A program made the position numbers and the translations under genes. DNA of 64,000 nucleotides from Methanolobus tindarius DSM 2278 (GTDB lineage Archaea > Halobacteriota > Methanosarcinia > Methanosarcinales > Methanosarcinaceae): positions 310,001-374,000 of the forward strand of contig NZ_AZAJ01000001.1 of the NCBI RefSeq assembly GCF_000504205.1, given 5' to 3'. Position 1 is the stretch's first letter. Each line of letters starts with the position of its first letter. Shown piece by piece: positions 8,515 to 50,090 of this stretch. The notes under the pieces were generated by a model, which saw only the letters and a list, made by a program, of their open reading frames with translations, made no database searches and had not been told where the DNA came from.

Positions 8515-8551
8515 GGTGAAAAAGAAAAACTCCGGACAGAGGGAGGAGTAC

Positions 8552-8596
8552 AAAAGTCATGGAAAAGGAAGAATTTGATTCCCTTTCCTGACTTTT
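8552..8596 (+). terminator. Rho-independent-like terminator
   Basis: AAAAGTCA-GGAAA-GGAA (8552-8570) pairs with TTCC-TTTCC-TGACTTTT (8579-8596) with two single-base irregularities. CCTTTTTTATC follows. It lies about 40 nt after the stop of the large receptor-like gene. Confidence 0.65.
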
Positions 8597-8660
8597 TCCT
8601 TTTTTATCACTGGCAGATTAAGTGCCTGAGAATTAAAACGTTTATCACGAGGTGATTAGT

Positions 8661-10130: not shown

Positions 10131-10190
10131 GTCACCAAAGAATTTTCGCCCTACGAATAATTTCGGAAATATTTGAAAATGGTGGATATT

Positions 10191-13100: not shown

Positions 13101-15611
13101 TCGATGTATAAAGAAATAGCAGGGGTTACTCACACATACAATAACGGGACCTTCGGATTTACTAATCTGGATGGAGAGGACTGGGCTAATGACTGGGTCA
13201 ATTATTCAGTCTATGCATTGGAATCTTCCGGTGAGGAATACCTGACCGGAAATGAAATGTTGACTATAAGGGGACCCCAGAACGCAACCTGTGAAGTGGA
13301 ACTGGAAAGTTCTACCCTACAGGAGTTCAATAAAATAGAAGCTCTTCTTCCGGGAGATGCCAGCCTTTCCGGCCAGGTATGGTATTATTCCAAAATGAAC
13401 TCTACGAACAAAACCGGAGTGGAAATGACAGTCCTGCTCCTCCAGGATGATGCTGTGGTGGCAGTTGACAGAACCGATGGTGACGGAAACTTTTCATTCA
13501 TTAACCTGCCTGATGGAACCTATACTCTTAGGGCATATTACTATCAGTATGTTGCGGAGATGGGCGGTGCACAGTTCTATTACATAGATCAGGAAACAAC
13601 GGAACACGTTCTTGAAGAAGGGGAAAGTGAAGAAGACTACAAACTCTGGGTATATACAAGCGGAACCGAAGATGAATACAATGAATTACAGGCTCTCACA
13701 GGCAATTCATCAATCTCCGGCCAGACATACTATACTTCGGAAGGAGAACGAATAAATTCCACATCGCTTGTCATTCTGGAGAAGCAAAGTTTCCGCCTCT
13801 CAACCGATGCTCAGAAGGTATATGATGATCTTGAAGATGCTATCACCTATGCAGAAACCCTGGAGGCATGCGGAGGCGAGATTGAAAGTGTTCTGAATGC
13901 CCTTGAAGGACAATACATAGCCCCGGCTCTTGGGGACGACCCGATACGCAGTCCTTCAGTCCTCCCAACGGGCAAGAATTTCTATTCTTTCAATCCATAT
14001 GTAATACCAAGCGAGGAGACCTGGAATCAGGGTGTGGAACTTACGGATGCATTCCTTGAAGAGTGGAAGGAGGCGAACGACGGAGAATATCCCACAAAGA
14101 TAGGTTTTGTCCTCTGGTCAGCAGAAACCCTGCGGCATAAAGGCGTTATGGAATCCGAGATACTGTACCTGATGGGTGTCAGGCCGGTATGGGAGAATGG
14201 CATCCTTTCAGATGTGGAGATAATCCCGGACGAAGAACTGACCCATCCGCGTATTGATGTGGTGGTCACCATCACAGGTGTATACAGGGATACGTGGGAA
14301 CTGCAGATAGAAATGATGGACAGGGCCGTGGCAAAGGTTTCGGAGCTGGACGATTCTGATAGTACCTGGGACAACTATGTGAAGGAAAATTCCGATGGTT
14401 TGTATGAGTACCTGAATGGAACCGGCAACTATACACAAGAGGAAGCAAAAGACCTTTCAATGGATAGGGTTTTTGGCCCTGATCTGGGAATGTATGAAGT
14501 CGGTTCAATGGGCTCTGCAATGTCCCAGAGTGATACATGGAATGGTAACGATAGCGAACTTGCGGCACTGTACCTGAGCAGTATGGCTTATGTATACGGT
14601 GAGGATGTATGGGGTCAGCACGAACCCGAGTTATTCAAAAAGGTACTAAGTGGCACGGAGGCTATTGTGTTCAGCAGGAGTGGCAATGACGGCCGCGGAA
14701 GCAGTGGAGTAGTCTTTGACCACGTCAGCACGTTCTACGGAGGACTGGCCCTGGCAATAAAGGAAATCGACGGGGAATATCCGGAAATGTATATTGCAGA
14801 CCTGAGAGACTCGGAAAATATGGAAACAACAACCCTTGTAGAATACCTTTACACAGAGTTGTACTCCACCTACTGGAATCCAACGTATATATCAGGCCTG
14901 ATGGAAAGTGGCTACGCCGGGGCGGCAGAATTGTTAGCTATTTTGCAAGATCTCGCTGCGCTTGATTATACCACGGGAGCTGTTACCGATGATATGTGGC
15001 AGCAGATATACGACACCTATGTACTGGATTCAAATGACCTTGGACTGGAAGAATGGTTTAATGATAATAATCCATATGCTCTCCAGTCCGCGTACGCCCA
15101 GTTAATTGAAGCAATAAGGTTGGGGGAATGGGAGGCTTCAGACGATGTACTTGAGAATCTGGCAAATAAGTACCAGGAATCCGTAGAAGAGTATGGCCCC
15201 TGCTGCTGTGTCCTTTGCTGTGGAAACGCTCTTTTAGATGACTATGCCAATGGACATGCAACATCGCATCAGATACTGGATAACCCCAGCACTGATCTCA
15301 GTAGTACTTCATCAGGCGGAAGTAGCGGTACCGGCAGTGCAAAGATTGTCCCTGCGAACAACAACGAGAACCAGGAAAGCATGAGTAACCAGAGTTCCAA
15401 CGCAAACGATGGGGGCTACGGAACAGATACTTCGCGTGCTTCAACTCCTGACAACTATGTGGAAGGGAATGTAATGCAAGCCGAGACTAATGCAAACCAA
15501 AACAGCCAGAGTTCCACATCCGGAATGTCAGCCTCAGGGGTCGCAATACTCGGAACAGTGTTTGTGTTGCTGACTCTCACAGTATTCTATGTGGGATTTA
15601 AGAGAAATTGA
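10191..15611 (+). CDS. Membrane-anchored, secreted CobN/HmuS-family protein with N-terminal domain A
   Basis: Starting at the ATG at 10191 (GGTGGA upstream), the protein has 1,806 residues. It has a signal peptide (1-26), domain A (27-180), then a CobN/magnesium-chelatase-H-type body. The body shows FGQHGTQEWLKGKGVGLS near 742, VAKRRGNCVIVDHATP near 790, and late motifs SRSGNDGRGSSGVVFDH and YIADLRDSE. A carboxypeptidase-regulatory-like insert (about 1053-1195) splits the body. A CCCVLCC cluster lies at 1671-1677, followed by a Ser/Asn-rich linker and a C-terminal membrane helix (about 1780-1803). CobN proper inserts cobalt in the cytosol with CobS/CobT, which are not seen here. HmuS is an envelope-anchored member reported to remove iron from haem anaerobically. 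The next three genes on the strand match HmuT, HmuU and HmuV types. Tetrapyrrole dechelation outside the membrane is the best inference; the ligand and the direction of reaction are unproven. Confidence 0.85.
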   Translation: MYSKHKLWILFSFFILVLTVCPALSAATFDFSDVPGANNTNYTLIAKTYTDDTETIVYDTLEDLINAPDGDFTFSDVPDGEYEIFFSYWIPAMNGWGVGNTTVTIENGEAVENLLFNGTLLYGDNDSYLWPQAEALHDTIVSGTVTSVSGNGSISGTAGFFDSSDAPSHYMKIARGAAIGLYSKEYVEADEEYLNITQPVNISCIVMDDDSAYMLREAVSQLDLEDQGVNISVYAFSRSSTSNISYTAPENVDLGDSDVIVLFSMTAMSFMAASVEDDVIAIVNGTKSENATIIDLGGFGLGTVELDKYPKLEEYWNNFYSINTERLLAYILINFCEGIDGNVWDPITVPTNGVYHPDMGRPSFETLEEYMEWYSTDDGTHHVYNPDNITIGIPFLINTNGDIGDRAIDDLISRLEAKGINVIPVHMHWLLYSSTPEYFKYEEEWLVDAFIDMGMGAMVTGVIYDTDYLQDVNVPVINAIEYEGTIEEWENSTTGRSYYYQYQIPIMEIGGEIESIVVSGKKYDEDHDAYVDEPIPAQMEWMINRTLNWINLKTTENEDRKVALIYYHNSPGRDTAMTATNLDVAPSIVSLLEGMEDRGYTLGNSTPNATELRQLVEDQGRNIGAWAPDELETIVSTNETELMPVEEYMEMFSQLPESCQNEVTEIWGEAPGDLMVYENESGKYFVFPKITLGNVILAPQPTRGGTNNTSILYHDQTTPPDHHYIAFYLWLQKQYEADVVIHFGQHGTQEWLKGKGVGLSATEDWPAIVIGDMPVVYIYNVGGISEGSVAKRRGNCVIVDHATPAIVDAGLYGELLELHDKIHLYTEADQNNDSIKYDYRNSTIELYESLGFENVLSVSAEELVDMTEEEYEEFVIYGEVHSYLHELASENMPYGLHILGETLEGEELVAMVKSLLGSSFKENVAAVYEGDEEELESANENNTLYKMLEDLLINGTEPEDILEIYLNETPSMYKEIAGVTHTYNNGTFGFTNLDGEDWANDWVNYSVYALESSGEEYLTGNEMLTIRGPQNATCEVELESSTLQEFNKIEALLPGDASLSGQVWYYSKMNSTNKTGVEMTVLLLQDDAVVAVDRTDGDGNFSFINLPDGTYTLRAYYYQYVAEMGGAQFYYIDQETTEHVLEEGESEEDYKLWVYTSGTEDEYNELQALTGNSSISGQTYYTSEGERINSTSLVILEKQSFRLSTDAQKVYDDLEDAITYAETLEACGGEIESVLNALEGQYIAPALGDDPIRSPSVLPTGKNFYSFNPYVIPSEETWNQGVELTDAFLEEWKEANDGEYPTKIGFVLWSAETLRHKGVMESEILYLMGVRPVWENGILSDVEIIPDEELTHPRIDVVVTITGVYRDTWELQIEMMDRAVAKVSELDDSDSTWDNYVKENSDGLYEYLNGTGNYTQEEAKDLSMDRVFGPDLGMYEVGSMGSAMSQSDTWNGNDSELAALYLSSMAYVYGEDVWGQHEPELFKKVLSGTEAIVFSRSGNDGRGSSGVVFDHVSTFYGGLALAIKEIDGEYPEMYIADLRDSENMETTTLVEYLYTELYSTYWNPTYISGLMESGYAGAAELLAILQDLAALDYTTGAVTDDMWQQIYDTYVLDSNDLGLEEWFNDNNPYALQSAYAQLIEAIRLGEWEASDDVLENLANKYQESVEEYGPCCCVLCCGNALLDDYANGHATSHQILDNPSTDLSSTSSGGSSGTGSAKIVPANNNENQESMSNQSSNANDGGYGTDTSRASTPDNYVEGNVMQAETNANQNSQSSTSGMSASGVAILGTVFVLLTLTVFYVGFKRN

Positions 15612-15623
15612 TGAGTGTTGAAA

Positions 15624-15659
15624 TGCACCCTGAAACAAATTCGGGGTGCAATTTTTTTT
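15624..15659 (+). terminator. Strong terminator after the CobN-like gene
   Basis: An 11-bp stem, TGCACCCTGAA (15624-15634) with TTCGGGGTGCA (15640-15650), has a 5-nt loop and an immediate T8 tract. It should end most CobN-like transcripts, so the three following membrane genes probably have their own promoter. Confidence 0.8.
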
Positions 15660-15837
15660 ATTGATATGCTTTTGTTTTCTTTCTACAGATGATTTTTTTA
15701 GGATATGATCCTGAAGACTGGTTTGTTCATATTGAAAAAGTAAAGAAGTTCCGGACAAGACATATGGCGAATGTGTATAGATTTAACTAACAATTATAGT
15801 TATACCAAAACTTCTAAATAAGTATAACACGTATAAT

Positions 15838-16030
15838 GGACCGCTGTTATGCAGCATCGCACATCACAATCAACTGTTATCTGTCATGCAGTTGTTTTTC
15901 CATCCATGGAAATGATGTTTTGTTGCATACCGGCCTTCGTATGTTTGTGAGAGACTATGGAGAATGCACTCATACCTAAAGGCAGTGCACAAAATGCGAG
16001 GGCAAATCAGGCACCGTTTGTCCTCTTAAA
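15838..16030 (+). ncRNA. Candidate structured non-coding RNA
   Basis: Several nested or consecutive pairings fall in under 200 nt. ATGCAGCA (near 15849) pairs with TGTTGCAT (near 15925), enclosing CAACTG/CAGTTG and TTCCAT/ATGGAA hairpins. TGCACT/AGTGCA follows (15965-15989), then a final 9-bp GAGGGCAAA/TTTGTCCTC hairpin (15998-16025) with a T-rich run behind it. A TATA-like stretch lies just upstream. The order of hairpins plus a terminator-like end suggests an RNA gene or long leader, but I recognise no family. Confidence 0.35.
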
Positions 16031-16183
16031 ATTATTTTTGTTAGTATAATGACTATTATTTTTTTGTAGGTGTACTTTTATTTGAAAATTCATATTTTTC
16101 TGGAACAGAAAAACCATTTTCTATTTTAGTGGTATGAATAATCATTTTATTGAACAGACAGAAAGTTTGTTTTTCATATTATA

Positions 16184-16240
16184 CCTAACTTTATTAGAGT
16201 AGGATAGATGTATCCCTAACACTAATTTATTACTCTAACA
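16184..16240 (+). promoter_or_regulatory. Cluster of CCTAA/TTAG repeats, candidate operator
   Basis: CCTAAC at 16184 is followed by TTAGAG, by the hairpin-like GGATA-gatg-TATCC (16202-16215), then by CCTAACACTAA and CTCTAAC. The half-sites resemble those before the other genes of the locus. They lie about 310-360 nt before the DUF2162-like start codon, so either the leader is long or they serve another transcript. Confidence 0.35.
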
Positions 16241-16547
16241 GATATGTAGCTATCTAATAATTGTGCATAGTACGCAAATTAGTAGCCATATCTATGATTG
16301 TATAGAAGGTACAAATAGAATTCAAAAATGCCGGGCATGAAAATCAAATATGTATTTATGCCTCTTGTTTCCTGGTAACAAAAGTAACATTTACCAACCT
16401 GTCAAATCCTAATTCAAAAGCAAATCAAGAAATCTGTGGCAAGGATTTACAGGCATCTTCCGGTATTTTTGAATTTTATTAAGTATCTGGATTCTGGAAT
16501 ATCAAAAAATTACCCATCAAGTAGTATGATATAATTTAGGAGGAAAA

Positions 16548-17225
16548 ATGGATATTGCTTATTCTATTGTAGTTGGTATATTGTTATCAATCCTGGTCTT
16601 CGGCATGAAAACCGGCGCAGGATGTGGCTTTTCAAGTATAGGGTTTAAAAAGATATTATTGCTTGGAGGGACCTATTTCATAATATCCCTGATCATGGGT
16701 TCCCTTACCGGATATATAAATATCCAGGGATTGCAGGATATTGCAGGAAAAGGTATGGTCGTACACTCAATCCTTGCAATCCTGCTTATAGGTGTAGGGA
16801 TCTATACGAATAAAAAATGGAATTGCGGATGTGACGTTTCAAAGCATACCTTTGTATTACTTTCACTTCCCTGTCCCGTATGTCTTGCAGCCTTGTTCCT
16901 TTCATGTATGATTCTGGTTACGACTTTTGAAGTAAATGGAATGCTTGTAGGACTTCTTGTAGGACTTGTATTCTTCATATCAGTGGTGAGTTCCGCATAC
17001 CTTTTCAGGAAAATGGGTAAAAAACCCGACACACTTGGAAATATAATGGTATTTCTGGGACTTTTTTATATGCTAAGCATCCTGCTAATCCCGTCATTTA
17101 TCAAAATGCAGTCAATGAACATAACACCCGTATCATCTGAAAGTGTAGGAATAATACCTTTCCTTGTATTCGGTATATTCATCCTGGCAGGGTATTTGAA
17201 AGAGAAGATAAGGAGGCATTCATAA
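16548..17225 (+). CDS. DUF2162-like polytopic membrane protein (HmuT position)
   Basis: A 225-residue, very hydrophobic protein with six or seven predicted membrane helices. An AGGAGG site lies 4 nt before the ATG. Cysteine-bearing spots stand out: TGAGCGF near residue 23, WNCGCD near 88 and LPCPVCLAAL near 104, the last two close to membrane boundaries and able to form a metal or disulfide site. The pattern fits the DUF2162 family of predicted transporters. Its stop codon overlaps the start of the ExbB-like gene (TAATG), so the two are translationally coupled. In Bacteroidota a protein of this kind lies between HmuS and the ExbB-like HmuU. The role is unknown; it may carry the released metal or redox equivalents across the membrane. 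Confidence 0.75.
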   Translation: MDIAYSIVVGILLSILVFGMKTGAGCGFSSIGFKKILLLGGTYFIISLIMGSLTGYINIQGLQDIAGKGMVVHSILAILLIGVGIYTNKKWNCGCDVSKHTFVLLSLPCPVCLAALFLSCMILVTTFEVNGMLVGLLVGLVFFISVVSSAYLFRKMGKKPDTLGNIMVFLGLFYMLSILLIPSFIKMQSMNITPVSSESVGIIPFLVFGIFILAGYLKEKIRRHS

Positions 17226-17848
17226 TGGCTTTTGAGTCTTTTGTATTCCAGACGCTGTACATATTTTCAGCTTCCTTACTGTATCCTGTGATTATCACAT
17301 TGATCCTGTTGGTTATCTTTTCACTATCCCTGATAGGAGAATTCCTCTCAGAATACTCAAAAAGGAATCGTGACCCTGCCAATCTGGAACAGTGCTGTAC
17401 TGTTGTAAGAAAGAATATTGGCTCACAGGATTTCAAAAAGGCTGCAGTATCCCTGCAAAATATCAAACAGAACCAGATGGTAATAGATTTTGCAAATGCA
17501 GCCTCAAAACATCTTGAGAATAATATGCTGCCTTCCATCGAATGGCTGGCACAGGAATTTGAGATCAGGATGTCAAAGAGACTGGAACAGACCAGGATAG
17601 TTGCCACTATTTCGCCTATGCTGGGACTTATGGGTACCCTTATACCTCTTGGACCTGCACTCATCGGACTATCTAACGGCGACATAGAACAACTTGCAAA
17701 CAATCTCATGATAGCCTTTGCTACAACGGTTGTAGGCCTTTTCGCAGGAAGCATTGGATATGTTCTCACCCAGATCAGAAAAAGATGGTACTGGCAGGAC
17801 ATGGCAGACATAGATTACATTTTAGAGACTCTGGAGGTTAAAGCTTGA
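17225..17848 (+). CDS. MotA/TolQ/ExbB-family proton-channel protein (HmuU position)
   Basis: The 207-residue protein has the ExbB/TolQ layout: an N-terminal helix (about 15-37), a cytoplasmic stretch, and two more helices (about 128-150 and 160-180). The family motif is ISPMLGLMGTLIPLGPAL, followed by IAFATTVVGLFAG. ExbB-type channels use ion flow to drive a periplasmic-facing partner. An archaeon with a single membrane has no TonB-dependent receptor, so energy would have to reach another extracytoplasmic partner, plausibly the anchored CobN-like protein. It is coupled to both neighbours by overlapping start and stop codons. Confidence 0.88.
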   Translation: MAFESFVFQTLYIFSASLLYPVIITLILLVIFSLSLIGEFLSEYSKRNRDPANLEQCCTVVRKNIGSQDFKKAAVSLQNIKQNQMVIDFANAASKHLENNMLPSIEWLAQEFEIRMSKRLEQTRIVATISPMLGLMGTLIPLGPALIGLSNGDIEQLANNLMIAFATTVVGLFAGSIGYVLTQIRKRWYWQDMADIDYILETLEVKA

Positions 17849-18207
17849 AGCGAAAAAGCCGAAGAAGACTCATAGATAACGAAGATGAGCAAAATCCCCT
17901 TACAGGGGTTGCTAATCTTTTTGATATTGCCATGGTCTTTTCCGTTGCCCTTCTTGTTGCTCTTGTTATGTCATACCAGTTACCGGAGTTACTGGACCCC
18001 AGTGAGGATTTAACAATTATCAAAAATCCTGGACAGCAGGATATGAAAATAATAATCAAAGAGGAAGGCAAGCCAATAGAAGTCCTGAACATGACAGATG
18101 AGGTAGGAGGCGGAACAGGGGAAGCCCTTGGGACTGCATACAGGCTGGCTGATGGCAGAGTGATCTATGTGCCTGAAGACAGCGAAGAATCAGCGGAAAA
18201 CAATTGA
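17845..18207 (+). CDS. DUF2149 / ExbD-like single-span membrane protein (HmuV position)
   Basis: This 120-residue protein starts at TTG (17845), with GGAGG ending 7 nt upstream and the ExbB-like stop codon overlapping (TTGA). It has a basic N-terminus (KRKSRRR), an NPLTG motif, one membrane helix (about 26-44), then an outward domain ending in GTAYRLADGRVIYVPE, the signature of DUF2149. The topology is that of ExbD/TolR, partner of ExbB-type channels. It is the third gene of the coupled DUF2162 - ExbB - DUF2149 set. Its stop codon directly abuts that of the convergent DtxR-family gene, with no base between them. Confidence 0.82.
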   Translation: MKRKSRRRLIDNEDEQNPLTGVANLFDIAMVFSVALLVALVMSYQLPELLDPSEDLTIIKNPGQQDMKIIIKEEGKPIEVLNMTDEVGGGTGEALGTAYRLADGRVIYVPEDSEESAENN

Positions 18208-39099: not shown

Positions 39100-39714
39100 A
39101 GTTTTCACCATTTTATTTACAGATTTTAGTAATACCATAATACAATAAATAGCTATTAGTTGTTATTTTTATGTTTATTCGTAACATTGATATATGAAGA
39201 AATACTATTTAGAACCAGACAGGTCGAACACTATCACAACAATAACTAGAAGTTCTCCGAAATATATTCTGTATAGCATGTTAGTGGTTCACGCATAACT
39301 GCTGTGTTTGGCCTGTTAATATTGGCCAATTTATTTACCAAGACCTTCCACTTTAATTGGCCAATCCTCCTATTCTACGGAAAAAAGGCTTCAGATAATT
39401 GAATCTATAGGATTAGTAAAGATTGCGGATTTTACAGAAAATATACTACAGTGACGTATAAATAGCCGTAAAAATACATAGAGAATTGCAATTAAAAATA
39501 GTTCTTCCGTATAAGAGTAAATTAGCATTATAATATAATTACATCAATTTGTAGCATAGAAACTAAGATGTATAACTAAAATAAAGCACTATATATAGTA
39601 TTGTTACTACTTCTTAATAAATTATTTCTTTAGAAATATAGATTCGTAGGTAGGTTTCCAGGTATTTTGCAGGTTGCAGAATTTATGAATACGGATACAT
39701 CAAGGAGTTACCAA
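39100..39714. other. 0.6-kb gene-less region before the ArsR-type regulator
   Basis: An A+T-rich divergent region. It holds two exact ATTGGCCAAT palindromes (39321-39330 and 39356-39365), TATA-like sequences near 39590 (ACTATATATAG) and the AAGGAG site of the regulator at 39702. No gene or RNA is recognised. Confidence 0.5.
39321..39365. repeat. Two identical palindromes ATTGGCCAAT, 35 bp apart
   Basis: ATTGGCCAAT occurs at 39321-39330 and again at 39356-39365, with a partial TTGGCC just before the first. The centre spacing of 35 bp is a little over three helical turns. Paired sites like these are typical operators. They lie between the flavin reductase-like gene and the ArsR-type regulator. 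Confidence 0.5.
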
Positions 39715-40011
39715 ATGGTTGAAAAGACTAACATGATTAAAGTGGTAGGTAATGAAACAAGATTAAAAATACTGGATTCACTTTCTTCCAAAGATAAACA
39801 CATCACAGAAATTGCAAATGAGCTTGGAATTTCATGTACAAGTATTTCCAAACACGTACGGGTGCTGGAAGAAGCGAAGCTTGTTGAAAGAAATATATTT
39901 GGTAAAAGTCATGTTCTTTCACTTCCAAATAAAGTGAATAAAAAAATAATTAATCAAGACTACTCATCAGATTTGGAATTGTACATTCTGGATAATTATT
40001 ATTTGGTTTGA
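39715..40011 (+). CDS. ArsR-type winged-helix regulator (upstream of the cbiZ operon)
   Basis: The best start is ATG 39715 with AAGGAG 7 nt upstream, giving 98 residues; two earlier in-frame starts lack a site. The protein is almost all winged helix: NETRLKILDSLSSKDKHITE, then ANELGISCTSISKHVRVLEE as recognition region, then LVERNIFGKSHVLS. No cysteine pair of the classical metal site is present, so the signal is unclear. A related regulator lies past the other end of the operon (49.1 kb), matching in NETRLK, SKH and the FGKxHVLS wing. It is the obvious candidate to control the operon that begins 222 nt downstream. Confidence 0.85.
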   Translation: MVEKTNMIKVVGNETRLKILDSLSSKDKHITEIANELGISCTSISKHVRVLEEAKLVERNIFGKSHVLSLPNKVNKKIINQDYSSDLELYILDNYYLV

Positions 40012-40233
40012 TAAAACCAACTACTATTTTTCACCACCAATTCAGAGTCATTCACACTCCGGCAAAAATGCCATTCAAAATGCCATTATTACTTAAAAAG
40101 CTAATAGCTATGAGGTAAAATCCACTCTATAAATACAACTTTTTTCAGATGCTCCGTGTTAATTTTGGTATGAGATTTTTCAATTTAATATTACATCATC
40201 CATGAAAAATACCTTGTTAACCGGTGATTGAAC

Positions 40234-41454
40234 ATGAATGGAAAAACAGATGAAAAAACTATCATCTCATCTATGGAAAACAGCCAGGTTGAAGTAAAAA
40301 ATGATAGCTGGCTTTCAAAAGAATTATTATGGCAAACATCTGGTGGAGAAAGGGTTTTCCTTCATGAGAAGTCGATTGTCGTGGAACTGCCATCTGGTAG
40401 AAATACGCTCACTACATCCTGGTTAAATGGAGGATACCGGAACGATATTCGCTACATATATAATCATCAGGTTCTGCATGAATCTGATGTTGACCATGAA
40501 GTTTCCTCTCTAGAAGGAGGAGGAATTTCAGCTTATGCTGCGCTGGTTTCAAAAAAGCTGGGACTTGATCCACTATATTCTACCGGTCTTATGACGGCAG
40601 CTAATATGAAAAACGTGGCAATAGTAACCCACAATTTCAGAGATCTTGAAGTTACAGCAATCATCACCGGTGGAATTGAAGTCAATGGGGGACGTGCAGG
40701 GGATCCTGCAACATATTACCAGGAAAACGGACAGTTCACCATGATTCCCGGGACAATTAACACCATTTTGCTCATCGGTGCCAATGTTCCGCATTATGCC
40801 ATGGTGAACGCGGTAGTTACAGCTAGTGAAGCTAAAGCCGTTGCAGTAAATGAACTTATGGCTCCCAGCCAGTATTCTCAGGGAATCGCCACCGGGTCAG
40901 GAACAGATATGATAGCTGTGGTTTCTGATAATACCAGCCATCTGTATCTTGACGACTCCGGAAAACATTCCAAACTCGGGGAGCTCATAGGAAAATGTGT
41001 GAAAGAAGCTACCAAAAAAGCCCTTGCACAGCAATCTGACCTTACATCACAGACCCAATGCAATATGTTAGTGCGGCTTGAAAGGTTTGGAATTGATGAA
41101 AAAAAATACTGGGAAGAAGCTTCCTCCATGGAAGGGGAAAACAGGAAAACGCAATTTATCGAAGAGCTCAGGATTATTGCAAAAAATCCTGCACTTGTGA
41201 GTCTAACAACATCCCTGCTCCATATTGTTGATGAAATATCATGGGAATTGCTTCCTGAGAAAGCCGGCAAAAAAGCTGCACTTTCACTTATAAAAAGTAT
41301 TCCTGAAATTTTACCTTGCGATAAACAACCACCATTTTACAAACTCCTCAACGAAAAAGACAGTATACTCAACAACTGGGTACGTATTACTGCCTGGGTC
41401 TGTAAAAATGGAAAATGTTATGCAGAAGAAAATCACAGCGAGAGCAACAATTAA
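40234..41454 (+). CDS. cbiZ: CbiZ-family adenosylcobinamide amidohydrolase with C-terminal extension
   Basis: Starting at the ATG at 40234 (GGTGA 7 nt upstream), the protein has 406 residues. Residues about 25-260 are CbiZ-like: TSWLNGGYRNDIRYIYNHQV, then STGLMTAANMKNVAIV, PGTINTILLIGANV, ASEAKAVAVNELM, and ATGSGTDMIAVVS. CbiZ cleaves the amide bond to the aminopropanol side chain of (adenosyl)cobinamide, giving cobyric acid, and is the archaeal route for salvaging corrinoids. About 140 further residues, helical and ending in a KNGKCYAEEN tail, are not part of the usual enzyme of about 240 residues. It heads the operon with a BtuFCD-type importer and nitrogenase-like proteins. This points to a corrinoid or related tetrapyrrole as the imported ligand. 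Confidence 0.88.
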   Translation: MNGKTDEKTIISSMENSQVEVKNDSWLSKELLWQTSGGERVFLHEKSIVVELPSGRNTLTTSWLNGGYRNDIRYIYNHQVLHESDVDHEVSSLEGGGISAYAALVSKKLGLDPLYSTGLMTAANMKNVAIVTHNFRDLEVTAIITGGIEVNGGRAGDPATYYQENGQFTMIPGTINTILLIGANVPHYAMVNAVVTASEAKAVAVNELMAPSQYSQGIATGSGTDMIAVVSDNTSHLYLDDSGKHSKLGELIGKCVKEATKKALAQQSDLTSQTQCNMLVRLERFGIDEKKYWEEASSMEGENRKTQFIEELRIIAKNPALVSLTTSLLHIVDEISWELLPEKAGKKAALSLIKSIPEILPCDKQPPFYKLLNEKDSILNNWVRITAWVCKNGKCYAEENHSESNN

Positions 41455-41488
41455 AATAAATTACCCAGTATGAACCGGAGAGAATTCA

Positions 41489-42667
41489 ATGAATAGAAAT
41501 TATGTTTTTGTTTTGCTTATACTTTTGATCTGTAGTCCCTTATCAGGATGCATAGGAGACAGCAGTCAGGAAACAAATAATCCTGTCAATGAAGACTACA
41601 ATTCTTCAAAAGATTATTTTCCTGACAAGATAGACATAGAATATGCACAGGGATTCACAGTTGAATATCATAATAATTACAAACTTGTAACTGTGATGGA
41701 CTCTGTTACAAACAATGAATATTCATACATACTTGTGCAAAAGGGAACTCCTGTTCCTGAGCATGATGAAGATTCCGTTGTAATTGAAATACCTGTAGAA
41801 AGTGTTGCTACTCTTTCCACAACACATTTGCCAGCTCTTGAGATTATCGGAGAGACTGACAAACTCAAAGCTGTCAGCTCTTTTACATATATAAATTCGG
41901 TTCCTGTAAGGCAAATGATTGAAGAGGGAACTATAGAAGAAGTAGGAACCGGCAGCTACATGAATACCGAAGCAATGGTCAGGATAAATCCGGATCTTGT
42001 TTTTACTCTCACTACAGGTGTCCCTTACGATGACAAACATATAGACAATCTGATTGATATCGGGATAAAACCCGTAGTTGTTGATGAATACAAAGAAGAA
42101 TCCGCACTTGCCGGAGCAGAATGGATCAAGTTCATATCCCTGTTTTTCAATGCGGAAGATAAAGCTAATGAATATTTTGATCAGGTTGCAAATGACTATA
42201 ATGAACTTGCAGAAATGGCAAAATCTGTAGAAAACAGACCGGTTGTAATGAGTGGAATGGCATGGGAAGGTACATGGTACGTACCTGGTGGGAACAGCCT
42301 GATAGCCCAGTACATCGATGATGCCGGAGCTAGCTATTTCTGGAATGACAATAATGACACAGGTACTGTAACCCTTGATTTTGAAGCAGTATTTGACATG
42401 GGTAAAGATGCTGATTACTGGGTTTCTTCAGGAACCTGGAACAACTTAGAGGAGCTTGAAGCTGAAGATTCTCTTTACATAGAATTTAATTCAGTAAACA
42501 ATGGAACTGTCTATTCCAGTTACTACAAGGTCAACGAAAACGGAGGGAACGACTATTATGAATCCGGAGTTGTGAGACCTGATCTGGTACTGGCTGATTT
42601 TGTAAAAATGTTCCATCCCGAATTAGTTCCTGACCATGAAATGGTTTATCATAAGAGGATAGAATGA
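41489..42667 (+). CDS. Lipoprotein BtuF/FepB-type binding protein of the cbiZ operon
   Basis: The 392-residue protein has a signal peptide with lipobox PLSGC (cysteine near 21), then an acidic Ser/Asn spacer and a class III binding fold. Telling segments are KLVTVMDSVTNNEYSYILVQ, VESVATLSTTHLPALEIIG, VRINPDLVFTL, and VMSGMAWEGTWYVPGGNSL in the second lobe. It should deliver ligand to the FecCD-type permease whose ATG overlaps its stop (ATGA at 42664-42667). Ligand identity is suggested as corrinoid-like only by CbiZ. Confidence 0.9.
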   Translation: MNRNYVFVLLILLICSPLSGCIGDSSQETNNPVNEDYNSSKDYFPDKIDIEYAQGFTVEYHNNYKLVTVMDSVTNNEYSYILVQKGTPVPEHDEDSVVIEIPVESVATLSTTHLPALEIIGETDKLKAVSSFTYINSVPVRQMIEEGTIEEVGTGSYMNTEAMVRINPDLVFTLTTGVPYDDKHIDNLIDIGIKPVVVDEYKEESALAGAEWIKFISLFFNAEDKANEYFDQVANDYNELAEMAKSVENRPVVMSGMAWEGTWYVPGGNSLIAQYIDDAGASYFWNDNNDTGTVTLDFEAVFDMGKDADYWVSSGTWNNLEELEAEDSLYIEFNSVNNGTVYSSYYKVNENGGNDYYESGVVRPDLVLADFVKMFHPELVPDHEMVYHKRIE

Positions 42668-43767
42668 AAAAAACTGAAAAACAAGATTTGAATAAAAAAA
42701 TGCAATTAAAGAATCATTCACAGAGAACAGCACTGCTCCTGGGATTCTTTCTTATTGCATTGTTTTTTTTCTTTGTGTTAGACCTTGTATTCGGATCAGT
42801 GAACATCCCACTTGGAGAAACACTTTCAGTAATACTCGGGAATACTCCGGTAGATGATTCATCAAAGATAATAATAATGGATCTGAGACTTCCAAGGGCA
42901 TTAGCGGCTGTTTTTGGTGGTGCTGCACTGGCAGTTGCAGGTCTTCTGATGCAGACATTATTCAGGAATCCCCTTGCAGGACCATTTATTCTTGGAATCA
43001 GTTCAGGTGCAAGCCTTGGAGTTGCCATAGTAATTCTTCTATTTGGAGGAGTTTCTGCAGCAACACTCCCACAAATGCTTCGAAGCCTTGGTTTTCTGGG
43101 TAGTGCCACAGTTGCCATGGCAGCATTTCTTGGATCTTCAGCGGTGCTTATGATAGTACTTTTCGTATCGCGGAAAATCCAGAGCAATGTCACAATTCTC
43201 ATTTTAGGACTGATGTTCGGTTACATCACAAACGCCCTGGTTACAATCCTTATACACTTCAGTGACCCTGAAAAAGTAAAAGCATTTTCAGAATGGACTT
43301 TTGGTACTTTTGATATCAGATGGACGGAAATAAGCATACTTGCCCCCGTGATTATAATCGCCCTGATATTTGCATTTTTACTTACAAAGCCCCTGAATGC
43401 TTTGCTGCTGGGCGAAGAATATGCTACCAGTATGGGAATGAACTTCAGCAAAACACGGAGCTACCTGATAATTATCACAGCCCTTCTTGCAGGTGTTGTA
43501 ACTGCTTTCTGCGGACCAATCACTTTCCTTGGCGTGGCTGTTCCACATCTTTGCAGAGGAATTTTTGTCACTGCCGATCACAGGATACTGGTACCGGGAT
43601 GCACATTAATCGGAGGAGGACTTGCATTATTTGCAGATATGATAGCACATCTTCCGGGAAGTAGTCTTACTTTGCCGTTAAGTTCAGTTACATCAATGCT
43701 TGGAGCACCTGTTATCATATGGGTCATACTTTACGGTAACAAACTTGGAAGAGGTGTTTCCGTTTGA
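42664..43767 (+). CDS. FecCD/BtuC-type permease of the cbiZ operon
   Basis: A 367-residue permease with some nine or ten helices. Motifs: IIMDLRLPRALAAVFGGAAL, LMQTLFRNPLAGPFILGISS, GASLGVAIVILLFGG and FCGPITFLGVAVPHLCRGIF. It overlaps the binding-protein gene by 4 nt and the ATPase gene by 4 nt (TTGA), so translation is coupled through the operon. Together these three genes make a type II importer separate from the doubled one at 25-32 kb. Confidence 0.93.
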   Translation: MKKTEKQDLNKKMQLKNHSQRTALLLGFFLIALFFFFVLDLVFGSVNIPLGETLSVILGNTPVDDSSKIIIMDLRLPRALAAVFGGAALAVAGLLMQTLFRNPLAGPFILGISSGASLGVAIVILLFGGVSAATLPQMLRSLGFLGSATVAMAAFLGSSAVLMIVLFVSRKIQSNVTILILGLMFGYITNALVTILIHFSDPEKVKAFSEWTFGTFDIRWTEISILAPVIIIALIFAFLLTKPLNALLLGEEYATSMGMNFSKTRSYLIIITALLAGVVTAFCGPITFLGVAVPHLCRGIFVTADHRILVPGCTLIGGGLALFADMIAHLPGSSLTLPLSSVTSMLGAPVIIWVILYGNKLGRGVSV

Positions 43768-44864
43768 AAGATGCACCTCTTATATCAACATCAGGCCTTT
43801 CAATAGGTTACAAACACAGGAACAAGGAATCCACAATAGTCTCCAGTAATCTTAATTTGGATTTGATGCCTGGAGAACTTGTCTGTCTTATTGGTCCAAA
43901 TGGTGCCGGTAAATCAACTTTAATAAGAACACTTATTGGAATGCAACCCGGTATTTCAGGTGACGTACATCTTGCAGGAAAATTACTGAGTGATTACAGT
44001 GCCATAGAAAAAGCCAGGGTTTTAAGTGTGGTATTGACATCACAGGTATCAATTTCACATTTCAGGGCTTTTGATGTTGCATCTTTAGGCCGTTATCCGC
44101 ATACAGGATGGTCAGGCACTTTATCAGAAAAGGACAGGGAAATAGTATCCTATTCATTAGCAGCAGTTGGTGCCAGTGAACTTTCCTCACGTTACATGTC
44201 AGAACTAAGTGACGGAGAAAAACAGAAAGTGATGATCGCACGTGGACTGGCCCAGGACCCTTCAGTACTTATTCTTGATGAACCAACTGCATTCCTTGAT
44301 ATGCCACACAAAATAGAGATAATGAGAATTCTTAAATCACTTTCACGTCATCCGGGCAGAGCTGTTCTGCTTTCGATTCATGATCTTGATATTGCCATGC
44401 GAACAGCCGATAAAATATGGCTTTTTAATAAAAATGGAGATTTTTATTCAGGTGCTCCTGAAGATCTTATTTTAAAAGGTGTTTTCGGATCGGCTTTTGA
44501 AATGGGAGGAGTACATTTTGATAATAAAAAAGGGACATTTGTTATTTCTCCTGAACAAAAAGGAAATGTCACCCTCATAGGGGAAGACAATAATGACAAT
44601 AACGAATTTATCTGGACATCTCATGCACTTGAACGTGCAGGATACAGTATTTGCAGTGATGGTAACTGTGATATTACTATTGAGATTCAGAATAACAATG
44701 GAGATACCTGCTGGAGATATTTGAACCATACAGCAGAACATGATTTCTTTTCCATTGCAGATATGATACAGTTCCTGTGCAGGACACACGAAAAAGATAG
44801 CAATGAAAAGCAGATAACTGATAATTTCTCCACCAGGCTTTCAGGAGGAATCAGTCTCCAGTGA
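43764..44864 (+). CDS. FecE/BtuD-type ATPase with unusual C-terminal extension
   Basis: A TTG start at 43764 overlaps the permease stop. The 366-residue protein has Walker [16 protein letters not shown], signature [17 protein letters not shown] (the second Gly of the usual SGG is Asp) and Walker [15 protein letters not shown]. Family members have 250-270 residues. Here about 100 residues follow, with two or three beta-strand-like segments, [18 protein letters not shown] and a helical end ([18 protein letters not shown]). The added domain could sense a ligand or contact the next-encoded NifHD-like protein, whose GTG overlaps its stop codon. Confidence 0.9.
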
Positions 44865-47080
44865 TCCAGATTGCAATCTACGGAAAAGGTGGTATCGGCA
44901 AATCCACCATCTCAGCAAATCTTTCGGCTGCCCTTGGAAACAGGGGAAAACGTGTACTACAGGTAGGGTGTGATCCTAAACATGATTCCACCAGACTTCT
45001 TCTGGATGGAGAATCAATACCTACTGTACTGGATTATATCCGCGATACTTATCCAGAACATCGAAAACTTGATGACATACTTTTCAGAGGATATGCAGAC
45101 ATAGCCTGTGTAGAAGCCGGAGGTCCGGAACCCGGGGTTGGATGTGCAGGCAGGGGAATCCTGAGCACTTTTGAAATCCTTGAAAAACTGGGAATTGAAG
45201 AAATACCTTTTGATATCAAGCTCTATGATGTCCTGGGGGATGTTGTATGTGGAGGATTTGCAGTTCCTATAAGAAAAGAATATGCTGATGCCATATACAT
45301 TGTAAGCTCAGGAGAATACATGGCACTGTATGCTGCCAACAATATTCTTCGCGGAATCAGTAATTTTGATGATAATTCACCCCGGGTTGCAGGAATTATC
45401 CATAATAGCAGGGGACTGGAGCATGAAAATGAAAAAGTAAGAGCCTTTGCCGATGCCGTTGGATTACCAGTGGTTACTTCGATTCCCAGGGATGAATTGT
45501 TTGCTGAAGCTGAAAAAGAAGGATGCACAGTTATACAGGGATATCCTATGTCTGTACCTTCATTCTTATTTAAGCAACTTGCAGATCATGTTGAAAAGGT
45601 ATCTAATGAGGACATCAGTCTTTTCAAAGCAAATCCGCTTAGCAATGAAGAAATGGAAAAGATAGTTCTTGGGAGAGTTCATAGTTTTAAACAGAATAAA
45701 AACAATTTAGCTGCAAGTCAAAAACCACTGCACTTTGAAATACCTGAGAAAAAACAAAAATCCCTGGTAAATAAGAAAAACCATTTTTTAACAAAGAATG
45801 TAAAAAACAAAAAACCACTTCAGGGATGTTCATTTGCGGGTGCTGTCACTGTAACTTCCAGAATAACCGATGCACTGACAATAGTTCATGGTCCCGGAAG
45901 CTGTGCACATATTGCATCCCATTTTCTCAATAACTCGCTGCTTAACGCCAGTTCAAGATATGGAATTGTTCCCTCAGAAAGTGAGGGAAAAAATCTTGTT
46001 TCTACTGAGATGGGTGAAAAATCCTTCATCTTTGGAGGAGTTGACAAGCTTGCTATGTGCATTGAAGAAGCCTGTATGAAAGGATGGAATACCATTTTCG
46101 TTGTCACTACATGTCCTTCGGGACTTATAGGGGATGATGTCGAACAGGCAGCATTAAGAGTGAAACAAAAATTCCCTGAAACAGATATACTCCCAATAGA
46201 AGTAGATGGTAATCTTGCAGGTGATTTTTCACAGGGAATTGTTGAAGCATATAAAATAATTAGCAATATGATAGACCCGGTCATTAAAGAAAACGAAGAT
46301 AAATCCCTAGTTAATATTGTAGGGGAAAAAACACTGTCAGGAAATCTAAATTCAAATTATGGAATTATTAAAGAACTTCTTGGAAGTATAGGAGTTGAAG
46401 TCAATTGCCGTTTTGTGTCAACTACAACTGTTGACGAAATCAGGAAATTCAAAAGGGCTTCATTGAATATTCTGGCACATAACGACGATTCTGGCACTGT
46501 TTTAAAGAGATTATTGGAATCAAATGCAGGTGTCGAATTCTTTGGTCTTCCGTTTCCCATAGGTTTTAATGAAACTGCTGAGTGGCTGGATCTACTTGCA
46601 GATCGCTTTGATACTGAAATAAGATCAGAAGAATTAATTGCCTGCCATAAGAATTTATATTTTTCCGAAATCGAAAGCCTGCGTCTTATTCTGAAAGGAA
46701 AGAGAGTGATAATAAGTTCTTTTTCCTTGAATCTTGACTGGATAATTGATACAATCATAGATCTTGGAATGGAACTGGTAAAAGTAGGCCTGATTGCATC
46801 ATCATATGATGATTTCAGAAGCAAATATATTGGGATATTGCCATTGGAATATGATTATACTACCGAAAAAAGGCAAAAGGATATAGAAGCACTTAACCCT
46901 GATCTTGTATTATCAAATTATCCACCTATGATGACAAAAAATGGAGTTCATCACGATGCCATACCTATTTCTCCTGATGTAGGTTTTTATAGCGGACTTG
47001 TAATGGCCAGACGATGGGGAACACTCATGAGACTTCCGGTTCTAGAAGGATGGAAACTGGATGGAGTTGACGTGTCATGA
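44861..47080 (+). CDS. Fused NifH-NifD-like protein of the nitrogenase superfamily (probable tetrapyrrole-type reductase)
   Basis: A GTG start overlaps the ATPase stop (GTGA). The 739-residue protein joins two modules. Residues 1-265 are NifH-like: P-loop GKGGIGKS at 8-15, CDPKHDST at 37-44, and both [4Fe-4S] ligands, C95 in GVGCAGRG and C130 in DVVCGGFA. A basic linker (about 270-318) leads to a NifD-like half with three cluster-type cysteines: C323 (LQGCSFAG), C348 (HGPGSCAH) and C418 ([11 protein letters not shown]). The C-terminal part ends with SPDVGFYSG and lacks the FeMo-cofactor histidine context. H and D are separate proteins in nitrogenase, BchLNB, BchXYZ and CfbCD, so this fusion is unusual. 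It should pass ATP-driven electrons to a substrate held with the K-like partner. Context (CbiZ, importer) suggests a corrinoid or other tetrapyrrole. Confidence 0.88.
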
Positions 47081-48366
47081 CACTAACAGCAGATGCATTT
47101 ACCGGTTCACTGCTGGCAGTGGAAGGTATTAAAGATGCAGCAGTTGTATTAAACGGCCCAACAGGTTGTAAGTTCTACCATTCACATATTTCCGATTGCC
47201 AATACCCAAGAGCTTCCTCTTTTGACCCGCTTGGCTATACAGAAGAATTCTATTTCGGCCAGCCACGGGTACCATGCACCTATCTTGAGGGTGATGATTA
47301 CGTTGCCGGCTCAACTGAAAAACTACGGAGAATTCTCCCTGCTATTGCAGCAAAAAGTGATGATCTGCTTGTGATCTTAAATTCACCGGGAGCTTCTTTG
47401 ATAGGAGATGACCTTAAAAAGTTCATTGATTCTGCCGGCCTGTCAAACCGTTGTATAGCTATTGAGAATGCTGGATATTCATCACCTGTCTGTGAAGGAT
47501 TTGAGCAAACTGTAATAGAGATCCTCAAATGGATGAATCCTGAAAAGAATTTGAATAATTCAAATCCGGTAAAGGTGAATCTTGTTGGAATCTCACTTTA
47601 CAATAGTAACTGGGACAGCACAGTATATGAATTAAGAAGAATTCTTTCGTTTTTGAATATTGAGATCGAAGCTGTCATTTGTGCCGGAACAAGTTTTGAG
47701 GAACTAAAGAAATCCACATCTTCTGTATGTAACATTGTAGTTTTTCCGGAATATGGACTTAAAATTGCAAAATGGTATGAAGAAAAACTTGGCATCCCAT
47801 ATGTTTTATCCCCGGCAGGTGCTCCAGTTGGATATGATGCAACTGAAATATGGATTGAGAAAATTGCATCGTTTATGGAGCTGGATTCATCTCATGCTAT
47901 CGAAATTTTAAGAAATGAACGGAAAAAGCATTATCATAAAATCTCACGTTTTCATTCTCTTACAGGCCTTCCAAAAGGTGCAACGTTTACCATCAATGGG
48001 GATAGTTCAGTTGTTTTGCCTTTAACAAAATGGCTGTATGAATATCTGGGAATGGCACCGGTTGGTGTAAAGATATTACCGGGATCTAAACCTGAGATTG
48101 AAAGTCAGATTATTGATTTTCTTGAAAAAACAGGATTTTCAGAGTCCTGGAACAAGTTTTGTGACGATGAACCGGTTGATATCGTAATTTCCGACGGGCA
48201 CACAATCAGGATGATACAGGAAAAAAGCCTGTGTAAAAAAGGTATCGAGATTGCTATGCCATCATCAGGATACTTGAATTTCCTGCCAAGAACATATGTT
48301 GGAATTAATGGCGCCTTGTTGTTACTGGAAGAAATATTCAATGGCTTAAGGAGGAGACCATTATAA
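47077..48366 (+). CDS. NifK/BchB/BchZ-like partner subunit
   Basis: The ATG at 47077 overlaps the HD stop (ATGA). The 429-residue protein aligns with the beta-type subunits of the superfamily through [16 protein letters not shown] (C31), [17 protein letters not shown] and [12 protein letters not shown]. Only C31 matches one of the three P-cluster cysteines of NifK; the first ([13 protein letters not shown] context) and third ([10 protein letters not shown]) positions have none. Three cysteines from D plus one from K give the single four-ligand cluster seen in BchYZ-type enzymes. Extra cysteines C41 and C67 are present. It is the last gene of the operon and has a terminator 163 nt on. A role in nitrogen fixation is unlikely. 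Confidence 0.85.
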
Positions 48367-48528
48367 ATTTGTATGTTAACACCCTTAATAATTACAAAGC
48401 ATTTTATTATTTCTTCTGGCGAAGTCGAAGTAAGTCATGGTTTTCTTTAGATAAAAATGCAAGAAAAAATGTGTGATTACATCTGCTAACTTGAATGTTC
48501 TTGCATTTAGAAAACAGAAATATTTGAT

Positions 48529-48573
48529 ATAGCAATTACAATCGTTTTCAGATTGTAACTGCTATCTTTTTTT
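48529..48573 (+). terminator. Terminator of the cbiZ-importer-NifHDK-like operon
   Basis: ATAGCA-TTACAATC (48529-48543) pairs with GATTGTAA-TGCTAT (48551-48565) with one mismatch; CTTTTTTT follows directly. It lies 163 nt after the last stop codon. Confidence 0.75.
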
Positions 48574-48603
48574 AGATTAATTGGTTAAATCACTTTCATG
48601 CTA

Positions 48604-48819
48604 TTAGCTTTCAAACCATAAATGAATCAAATACTGTAGTCTTTCAGTAGTTATTGTTTCATTTGTATTCTCAAATGACTGGTAATTCAGCCAGTAATGT
48701 ATAGCTTGCTGAAGTTCATTTGTACTTATAAGCAGATGCCTGAAAGAAAATTCGTTGGCTGGGTTTAAATTGTGGAAGGTGTAGATGAAGAAAAAAGGGG
48801 TTGCCAGCCAACCGGCCAA
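48604..48819 (-). pseudogene. Isolated C-terminal module of a PQQ/PKD-type surface protein (gene remnant)
   Basis: The last 45 codons encode STNELQQAIHYWLNYQ, a short spacer and TTERLQYLIHLWFES. This matches the C-terminal module of the 913-residue surface protein (GDEFHAAVKCWL, GDRFQELIHDWL) and of the partial protein at the window end (SDEFQQAIHCWI, GDRIQILINKWL). The upstream codons show no propeller or signal sequence and no ribosome-binding site, so only the 3' end of a former gene seems to remain. It is a dockerin-like two-helix unit. Alternatively it is a stand-alone small protein, which I consider less likely. Confidence 0.6.
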
Positions 48820-49120
48820 ATAACGTGTTGACAGAAAAATATTGGTTGCAATGAAGGATGGTCAACTACATTATTTGGCTCCTGCGACTTAATTGGTAAT
48901 TGTAATATTTAAGCGTATGATTTGCGATAATATCTGTTAGCTTAAACTATAATGATTTAAGTTTTTTACTTTACTCTGTGATTTCAAACTTGATTTAGTT
49001 TCATTCTGGCTGACAGCCACTTAATTTTTATCCAAAACATGCCAAATCATTGTTTGTTTTTAAGCTAATAAATAAAAACAATACGAAACATATATATCAT
49101 CATAAATAATCATTCATATT
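48820..49120. other. Intergenic region before the second ArsR-type gene
   Basis: GCCAAATAA (48815-48823) and TTATTTGGC (48871-48879) form a 9-bp inverted repeat with a 47-nt spacer at the edge of the gene remnant and could mark an old rearrangement. The rest is A+T-rich without a gene. The promoter of the ArsR-type gene is at its right end. Confidence 0.45.
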
Positions 49121-49121
49121 A
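49087..49121 (+). promoter_or_regulatory. TATA box placed for a leaderless transcript
   Basis: ACATATATATC (49087-49097) is centred about 28 nt before the ATG at 49121, and there is no ribosome-binding site. This spacing puts the transcription start at or next to the start codon. Confidence 0.55.
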
Positions 49122-49447
49122 TGTCCTATGAAAATGTCAAAATCCTCAATGCACTTGAAAATGAAACACGTTTGAAAATGTTTAAACATATAAATAAAGA
49201 GGATATGCACATCTCAAAAGTGGCAAGAATATTAGAGATTTCTATTCCTGTGGCATCTAAACATGCCAGTATACTTGAAGATGCAAATCTTATCGAAAGA
49301 AAAATTTTTGGAAAAACACATGTCCTTTCCAGCAAAAATAAAAAATTATTCAAATTTGCAGAGGAATCAAAAGAAGTAATAACTAAGGATTATCAAAAAA
49401 TATTCAATACAGTAGAGTCACTTCGAAGAATTGCATCAAATGACTGA
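49121..49447 (+). CDS. ArsR-type winged-helix regulator (downstream of the NifHDK-like operon)
   Basis: The 108-residue protein is a winged helix of the same subfamily as the regulator at 39.7 kb: NETRLKMFKHINKEDMHISK, then ARILEISIPVASKHASILED and LIERKIFGKTHVLSS. It has no metal-binding cysteine pair. No ribosome-binding site precedes the ATG, and a TATA box sits about 28 nt upstream, so the mRNA is probably leaderless. It may regulate the cbiZ operon, or the pilus-associated gene that begins 19 nt after its stop and probably shares its transcript. Confidence 0.82.
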   Translation: MSYENVKILNALENETRLKMFKHINKEDMHISKVARILEISIPVASKHASILEDANLIERKIFGKTHVLSSKNKKLFKFAEESKEVITKDYQKIFNTVESLRRIASND

Positions 49448-49466
49448 GTTTCATAATTGCAACTTG

Positions 49467-50090
49467 ATGAAAATGTTTAAAAAACTTTTAATATGTATTA
49501 TTTTCACGATCTTCTGCATTTACTCTGTAGCAAATGTCAGCGCTGTAGGAGTCGGTGTTAGTCCTGCAAACATGAGCTTTGATGCACATGTAGGAATAAC
49601 GGAGTATCAATCTCTTTTTGTAATAAACGACGGACAAAGCATATCAGATTACAGGGTATATGTTGATGACCAATACGTAGACTGGTTTTCTATATCACCC
49701 AACAACTTCACACTCCAGCCTGGAGAACATAAAGAAGTGATCATTGGACTTAAACCACCTGTTTCAGCAAACGGAAACTATGATATGAAAGCCTATGTCA
49801 TAGCTTCAGCACCCTCTTCTGACTTTGAAGTCGGCAGTGGAATAAAGATACCGGTAAAAATAAATGTCTCAAATAAAGGCTTATTCTACGCTTCAGGAGC
49901 CATATTAGTACTGGCTGTCGGAATGATACTTACCGGAACCAGATGGAATAGAAAAAGAAAACAGAATCGGGTTAATTTGAATACTGCTGAGATTAGAATT
50001 GCTGATACAGCGGTTGTATCCTCTGCTGTTGATGAAGTTACTAATTGTGATTTGGGCTTGGGTTCTGGATTGGAAGACGAGATTGATTAA
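49467..50090 (+). CDS. Secreted/membrane protein, pilus-locus accessory (paralogue of the gene at 55.7 kb)
   Basis: Starting at the ATG at 49467 (an ATG two codons later is an alternative), the protein has 207 residues. It has a signal peptide (about 1-30), then a single Ig-like domain beginning VGVGVSPANMSFDAHVGITE and containing FTLQPGEHKEVIIGLKPP. The membrane helix LFYASGAILVLAVGMILTG comes next, then a charged cytoplasmic tail of about 45 residues. The domain resembles the abundant-in-archaea COG1470/NEW-type beta domains. The protein at 55.7 kb shares the domain (VSVGASPYSLEF, FDLSPSMTKEVTV) but lacks the helix and tail. The two bracket the pilus ATPase/membrane genes, suggesting roles in pilus assembly or anchoring. 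Confidence 0.7.
   Translation: MKMFKKLLICIIFTIFCIYSVANVSAVGVGVSPANMSFDAHVGITEYQSLFVINDGQSISDYRVYVDDQYVDWFSISPNNFTLQPGEHKEVIIGLKPPVSANGNYDMKAYVIASAPSSDFEVGSGIKIPVKINVSNKGLFYASGAILVLAVGMILTGTRWNRKRKQNRVNLNTAEIRIADTAVVSSAVDEVTNCDLGLGSGLEDEID

Follow-up and report, generated by a model that had tools for sequence, protein, structure and literature searches.

A 64,000-nucleotide stretch of the Methanolobus tindarius DSM 2278 genome (contig NZ_AZAJ01000001.1, positions 310,001 to 374,000; here called the window, whose coordinates are used throughout) contains an operon that joins CbiZ to the binding protein, permease, and ATPase of an ATP-binding cassette (ABC) importer and to two nitrogenase-like proteins, a NifH-NifD fusion (HD) and a NifK-like chain (K). 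We propose, with a probability of about 0.55, that this operon is a cobamide and corrinoid salvage unit in which an imported corrinoid is trimmed and then reduced by HD-K, an ATP-driven reductase of the type represented by dark-operative protochlorophyllide oxidoreductase (DPOR) and chlorophyllide a oxidoreductase (COR). The results obtained directly are gene content, co-conservation, phylogenetic position, ligand pattern, and fold class. HD-K represents a new branch within a known superfamily; its substrate is likely new as well and is most likely a corrinoid.

Six intact open reading frames occupy positions 40228-48366 on the + strand (Table 1). Four of the five gene junctions are overlaps of exactly 4 nt, and the CbiZ and binding protein genes are separated by a 34-nt gap. 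An earlier reading of this DNA made without database searches (the sequence-only reading) had described the same gene order, from CbiZ to the NifK-like protein, and the same overlaps, and both were confirmed by the reading frames and their Pfam matches. That reading placed the CbiZ start at an ATG at 40234, while we assign it to a TTG at 40228. CbiZ scores above the curated cut-off of its family and is predicted from its sequence to be an amidohydrolase of a long form with ∼150 additional C-terminal residues. HD matches both Fer4_NifH (301 bits) and Oxidored_nitro (230 bits) in a single reading frame.

Phylogeny, cluster ligands, and fold of HD-K

Trees that took in Nif, Vnf, NifEN, VnfEN, Mar-like, DPOR, COR, and CfbD sequences and a Treponema set placed the D and K sequences in one clade each (Shimodaira-Hasegawa-like approximate likelihood ratio test [SH-aLRT] support, 99) and the H sequences in one clade (98), all outside the included reference groups. 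No part falls inside a characterized nitrogenase-like group, in line with the sequence-only reading. We claim no sister group, given the weak support for deep branching order and the presence of several long branches. Separate H, D, and K genes are found at L114:5605-8645 (genome G341), where the H and D genes overlap by 50 nt without being fused and an adjoining gene looks like a NifX-type protein; this D, which has a long branch, groups beside the clade of focal D sequences (98). On a different branch, nitrogenase-like H, D, and K proteins are encoded by individual genes on a plasmid of Treponema saccharophilum, adjoining a FecCD-type importer and with no CbiZ (L098:4936-11232).

Three cysteines matching NifD residues 62, 88, and 154 are kept in D, and K has one cysteine, matching NifK residue 95, with its remaining two P-cluster sites occupied by Asp and Pro; this holds in all 14 rows of the alignment, none of which shows the six P-cluster cysteines of the Nif, Vnf, and Anf nitrogenases. 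C31 and D6 of K are invariant in 21 orthologues, and HD orthologues retain the Fe-protein cysteines along with the three P-cluster-type cysteines. Neither FeMo-cofactor ligand is conserved in D in the 14-row alignment: the NifD Cys275 site is occupied by H, Y, K, C, F, or D, and nothing aligns at the His442 site. Ligand loss and tree position rule out nitrogen fixation and FeMo-cofactor assembly. The highest-scoring NifH of this genome, with adjoining NifD/K-like genes, sits elsewhere (L099).

The four cysteines appear to form a 3+1 ligand layout for an intersubunit [4Fe-4S] cluster, at the positions used in BchN/BchB and BchY/BchZ. HD-K is not a member of the group V clades BchNB or BchYZ in the trees, and the score with the BchB equivalog model is 91 bits, for which the cut-off is 490. 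The AlphaFold model of K (predicted local distance difference test [pLDDT], 78.5) has low confidence around residues 28-78, where the ligand cysteine lies. It most closely matches BchB (Z 34-36), followed by MarK (31.5) and NifK (∼30). Ligand pattern and modeled fold together predict a single [4Fe-4S] cluster between the subunits and a pocket for an organic substrate rather than a nitrogen-fixing enzyme.

Distribution, partner genes, and importer

Among 393 genomes of the phylum, 22 carry orthologues of K (≥43% identity), and the next matches lie near 25-30%, below ∼31%; this distribution, with its sharp gap, indicates that HD-K is not a chance arrangement. The H-D fusion is present in all 22 aligned orthologues. 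HD is full length in 12 genomes and has a longer linker in 7 more in a 150-genome sample of the order. The closest named relative, Methanolobus psychrotolerans, has an identical gene order and 78% identity over HD in the best segment. No relatives orthologous to the HD-K system were found on plasmids or viral contigs.

CbiZ adjoins HD-K in all 12 carriers outside Methanosarcina, which comprise Methanolobus and relatives from several genera and three families. The importer adjoins HD-K in 10 of these 12 CbiZ-type genomes, lies ∼10 kb away in G112, and is not adjoining in G113; in G469, which is one of the 10, the permease was not found intact. Of the six genes that the sequence-only reading proposed to survey for traveling together, CbiZ, HD, and K do so in 12 genomes, while the importer is not always beside HD-K.

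Table 1. Operon genes and flanking regulators in the window
Feature	Coordinates	Strand	Evidence
ArsR-family regulator, 5' of operon	39667..40011	+	PF01022; same position in L009, L040, L041, L042
CbiZ, adenosylcobinamide amidohydrolase family, long form	40228..41454	+	PF01955, 193 bits (cut-off, 27)
Lipoprotein-like binding protein, type II ABC importer, class III	41489..42667	+	PF01497/Peripla_BP_2, 75 bits
FecCD/BtuC-family permease	42664..43767	+	PF01032 (FecCD), 264 bits
ABC importer ATPase	43764..44864	+	ABC_tran, 100 bits
HD, 739 aa: NifH-like (∼residues 1-270) and NifD-like (∼319-739)	44861..47080	+	PF00142 and PF00148
K, NifK/BchB-like, 429 aa, one cluster-ligand Cys	47077..48366	+	PF00148 (Oxidored_nitro), 152 bits
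Second ArsR-family regulator, 3' of operon	49121..49447	+	55% identity to ArsR at the genome's other CbiZ/CbiR-like locus

The ArsR-family protein encoded 5' of the operon is likely its regulator. No Rfam match to a cobalamin riboswitch was found within 39100-49500.

A fuller gene set was obtained by reading the flanks of each locus with each gene as a query. The fullest locus, L045, has the order CbiZ-ChlI-ChlD-CbiR-like-binding protein-permease-ATPase-HD-K-CbiK-CobN, and the four Methanomicrobia-type loci carry this set in slightly altered order. The CobN of these operons scores 987 bits with the TIGR02257 cobaltochelatase model (cut-off, 822) and outscores BchH, and ChlI and ChlD score highest with cobaltochelatase subunit models. 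Seven of the 12 CbiZ-type genomes have operon-type CobN and ChlD together, and none of 5 others tested does; neither gene is present in the window genome, G065, G135, G087, or G113. CbiK is found in 10 of the 12, the exceptions being the window genome and G087. Across the 393 genomes, full-length CbiK occurs in 17, of which 10 are among the 22 HD-K carriers (Fisher P = 5e−10, a value that ignores shared ancestry). The operon CbiK belongs to the full-length family and conserves two His residues, presumably catalytic, with flanks as in the known enzyme.

The remaining partner encodes a triosephosphate isomerase (TIM)-barrel protein. CbiR is the sole family that it matches, weakly and in 9 of 12 members (NF041277, 22.7 bits versus a cut-off of 105), and its invariant His, Asp, and Glu could be the metal ligands of the superfamily. 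In cobamide remodeling, CbiR acts by opening the nucleotide loop (PMC7733943). In the window genome, the CbiR-like gene adjoins the second CbiZ (L154), so that its association with CbiZ is seen twice. The sister genome G257 has CbiZ, the CbiR-like gene, and CbiK, while HD-K and the importer are absent. Since HD-K also persists without chelatases, the reductase does not need adjoining chelatases, and the chelatase side can lack the reductase. The copy in G087 (L041) seems to be decaying, because its K gene (8003-9091) has an in-frame internal deletion of ∼65 residues and the genome has no CbiK.

Further observations concern CobN genes. The operon CobN of G109 (L045:2674-6432) is split by an in-frame TAG into 347 and 853 aa, and the whole-genome match reads through one TAG; this may be read-through with pyrrolysine, for which the family is known, or a pseudogene. 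Another CobN/ChlID class, with ∼34-42% identity to the operon CobN, adjoins several ABC transporter genes in Methanosarcina-like genomes (L161, L162, L164, L166, and L169). Positions 10173-18207 of the window encode a CobN of 1812 aa that appears to have a signal peptide and, at its C terminus, a membrane helix; genes for DUF2162, MotA/ExbB, and DUF2149 proteins come next. We take this set to resemble the HmuS module of the Bacteroidota heme de-chelatase operon, here in an archaeon. Large CobNs of this kind occur as tandem sets in relatives.

The sequence-only reading called the importer BtuFCD type. This describes a likeness only: no component reaches the cut-off of a Btu equivalog (BtuC, 209 versus 334 bits; BtuD, 109 versus 281; BtuF, 22 versus 234), and other vitamin and heme importers score similarly. 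The top NCBIfam row of the ATPase is a corrinoid ABC ATPase, at a score under its cut-off. In the PDB, the permease matches HmuU first (8e−50) and BtuC next (9e−43), while BtuF is the nearest, weak match of the binding protein (E = 0.004), which was aligned across 11 loci. The structure model of the binding protein is too poor for a ligand to be assigned by fold (pLDDT, 68; predicted template modeling score, 0.64).

Proposed route and alternatives

A corrinoid is favored as the substrate because all named enzymes of the operon, taken as the L045 set, handle corrinoids. The sequence-only reading had allowed a corrinoid or another tetrapyrrole, and the CbiR-like protein, CbiK, and CobN/ChlI/ChlD favor the former over tetrapyrroles in general. 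In DPOR, COR, and CfbCD, a tetrapyrrole is held in a cavity and reduced by electrons from an ATP-driven Fe protein (PMC12552129, PMC7242693). Given the neighboring genes, a corrinoid is the likely guest of HD-K.

From these results, we infer the reaction and the order of steps as well as the substrate. External cobamide or cobinamide would be taken up by the ABC importer, its nucleotide loop would be opened by the CbiR-like enzyme (encoded at the second locus in the window genome), and CbiZ would remove the aminopropanol arm to leave cobyric acid. The H part would then deliver one electron per ATP-driven docking to the single [4Fe-4S] cluster held by three cysteines of D and one of K, and this cluster would reduce the corrinoid bound in the D-K cavity. 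The likeliest reaction is reduction of cobalt to Co(I) with loss of the upper ligands, which would make the ring ready for adenosylation. Where CobN/ChlI/ChlD and CbiK are present, cobalt reduction could also ready the ring for cobalt removal or insertion.

Cobalt reduction is ranked as most likely, with ring reduction a strong second, because adenosylated corrinoids are the substrates of the CbiZ family and adenosylation needs Co(I). In the aerobic route, the required Co(I) is produced by CobR (PMC7242693). The ranking also reflects that both settings of HD-K touch corrinoid redox chemistry, namely, the salvage operon and the DUF1638 gene found 5' of HD-K in two Methanosarcina-like genomes (plus fragments). 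DUF1638 has been tied to corrinoid (B12) reductive activation or reactivation (PMC5764234); its support here is weak because adjacency is limited to those instances.

Several observations weigh against the salvage proposal. Eleven Methanosarcina-like genomes carry HD-K without adjoining CbiZ or importer, which rules out a strict link between HD-K and the importer. Together with the nonadjoining importer of G113, this weakens the earlier argument that co-translation makes the imported compound the substrate. The operon CbiZs fail to form one clean clade in the tree. The retention of CbiC in all 18 genomes tested implies that corrin can probably still be made de novo, in which case salvage would not have to be essential. 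Neither the binding protein nor the permease is decisive for a corrinoid, and the CbiR match is far under its cut-off. The enzymes known to us with a 3+1 cluster layout reduce C=C bonds of the ring, not metal centers. Finally, the published description of a comparable operon, operon-2 of Dehalobacter restrictus, names no nitrogenase-like gene (PMC4285132).

The best-surviving alternative is a corrin-ring reductase, in which HD-K would use at least two electrons and protons to reduce a C=C bond in the corrin or in an oxidized corrinoid, either to repair damaged corrinoids or to yield a reduced one. The 3+1 layout shared with DPOR and COR and the BchB fold match argue for it, as does the fact that all characterized members with a [4Fe-4S] cluster alone reduce a macrocycle (PMC12552129, PMC7242693). 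We nevertheless consider it a minority possibility, since there is no known reduced corrin coenzyme, two adjoining chelatase systems would lack a clear role, and the focal D, H, and K lie outside the DPOR/COR clade. A different compound could instead be imported, such as heme, siroheme, an F430 breakdown product, or a metallophore, with CbiZ serving another amide. The nearest relative of the permease is the hemin protein HmuU, the binding protein family is not diagnostic, and the Treponema genes described above join a FecCD importer to nitrogenase-like proteins without CbiZ; however, the CbiR-like protein, CbiK, CobN, and ChlI/ChlD all indicate corrinoids or cobalt, which makes this reading improbable. 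Less probable still is cobalt recovery, in which imported corrinoids would be reduced and their metal extracted by CobN/ChlI/ChlD or CbiK as HmuS does with heme iron: L045 does place class I and class II chelatases in one cluster, CobN-like HmuS is a de-chelatase (PMC12583661), and a reductase would loosen cobalt, but the window genome and G087 keep HD-K and CbiZ with none of these chelatases, G065, G135, and G113 keep them with no CobN/ChlD, and the reusable ring yielded by CbiZ would be odd for scrapping.

An extended form of the salvage proposal would be a complete anaerobic line for dismantling and rebuilding corrinoids, running from import through the CbiR-like enzyme, CbiZ, and HD-K reduction to cobalt removal or exchange by CobN/ChlI/ChlD and CbiK. 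We regard this extension as doubtful; if true, it would provide the first nitrogenase-superfamily enzyme acting on corrins and the first role for archaeal CobN. To our knowledge, reduction of the ring or cobalt of B12 has no demonstrated precedent among nitrogenase relatives. If the salvage proposal is correct, the corrin ring of vitamin B12 would join the precursors of chlorophyll and F430 as tetrapyrroles reduced by nitrogenase relatives. It would also give a corrinoid context to the archaeal HmuS/CobN/ChlH homologues, the use of which was called unclear in a 2025 study (PMC12583661). Corrinoids drive methyl-compound methanogenesis and organohalide respiration, and the recycling of foreign cobamides therefore matters for B12 sharing in communities.

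Comparison with known systems

A close counterpart is operon-2 of D. restrictus, which combines a Fep/Btu importer, two CbiZ proteins, CobN, and Mg-chelatase subunits under a cobalamin riboswitch. Corrinoid starvation raised its first-gene transcript 346-fold, and the increase of its proteins averaged 46-fold (PMC4285132); this response counts in favor of the salvage proposal. The importer, CbiZ, CobN, and Mg-chelatase subunits likewise share one operon here (the latter two in relatives of the focal operon), whereas riboswitch control sets operon-2 apart.

Among nitrogenase-like enzymes, MarK is the nearest solved structure to K by sequence (E = 9e−19). Mar has a P-cluster with six Cys ligands and an [Fe8S9C] cluster (PMC12552129). 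With four of these six cysteines retained in the alignment, the focal proteins are distinct from MarHDK. CfbCD, which functions in F430 synthesis, is likewise a methanogen tetrapyrrole reductase without FeMo-cofactor, and the CfbC model gives the top score of the focal H part (333 bits), under its cut-off of 402. Unlike the single-chain CfbD, which has no K partner, the focal system has two different component-1 chains, which fall in another clade, and a CfbC/CfbD-like pair is encoded separately in the window genome (L100).

DPOR (BchL/BchN/BchB) and COR (BchX/BchY/BchZ) share with HD-K an Fe protein acting with two component-1 chains, three ligands on the D-type chain and one on the K-type chain, and the lack of FeMo-cofactor ligands; BchB is also the best fold match of the K model. 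The focal system differs in the fusion of H and D, in its separate clades, and in the lack of chlorophyll genes. The ligand of K is a Cys, as in BchZ, whereas BchB has an Asp, and K is shorter than BchB (∼429 versus 511-536 aa).

The same gene architecture was reported by Dos Santos et al. in 2012 from Archaea, Firmicutes, and Deltaproteobacteria, as NifH-NifE fusions accompanied by NifN-like genes; these were mentioned as "data not shown" and filtered from the tree, and neither neighbors nor a function were given (PMC3464626). They probably represent the HD-K branch, which, if our proposal is true, gains a testable substrate.

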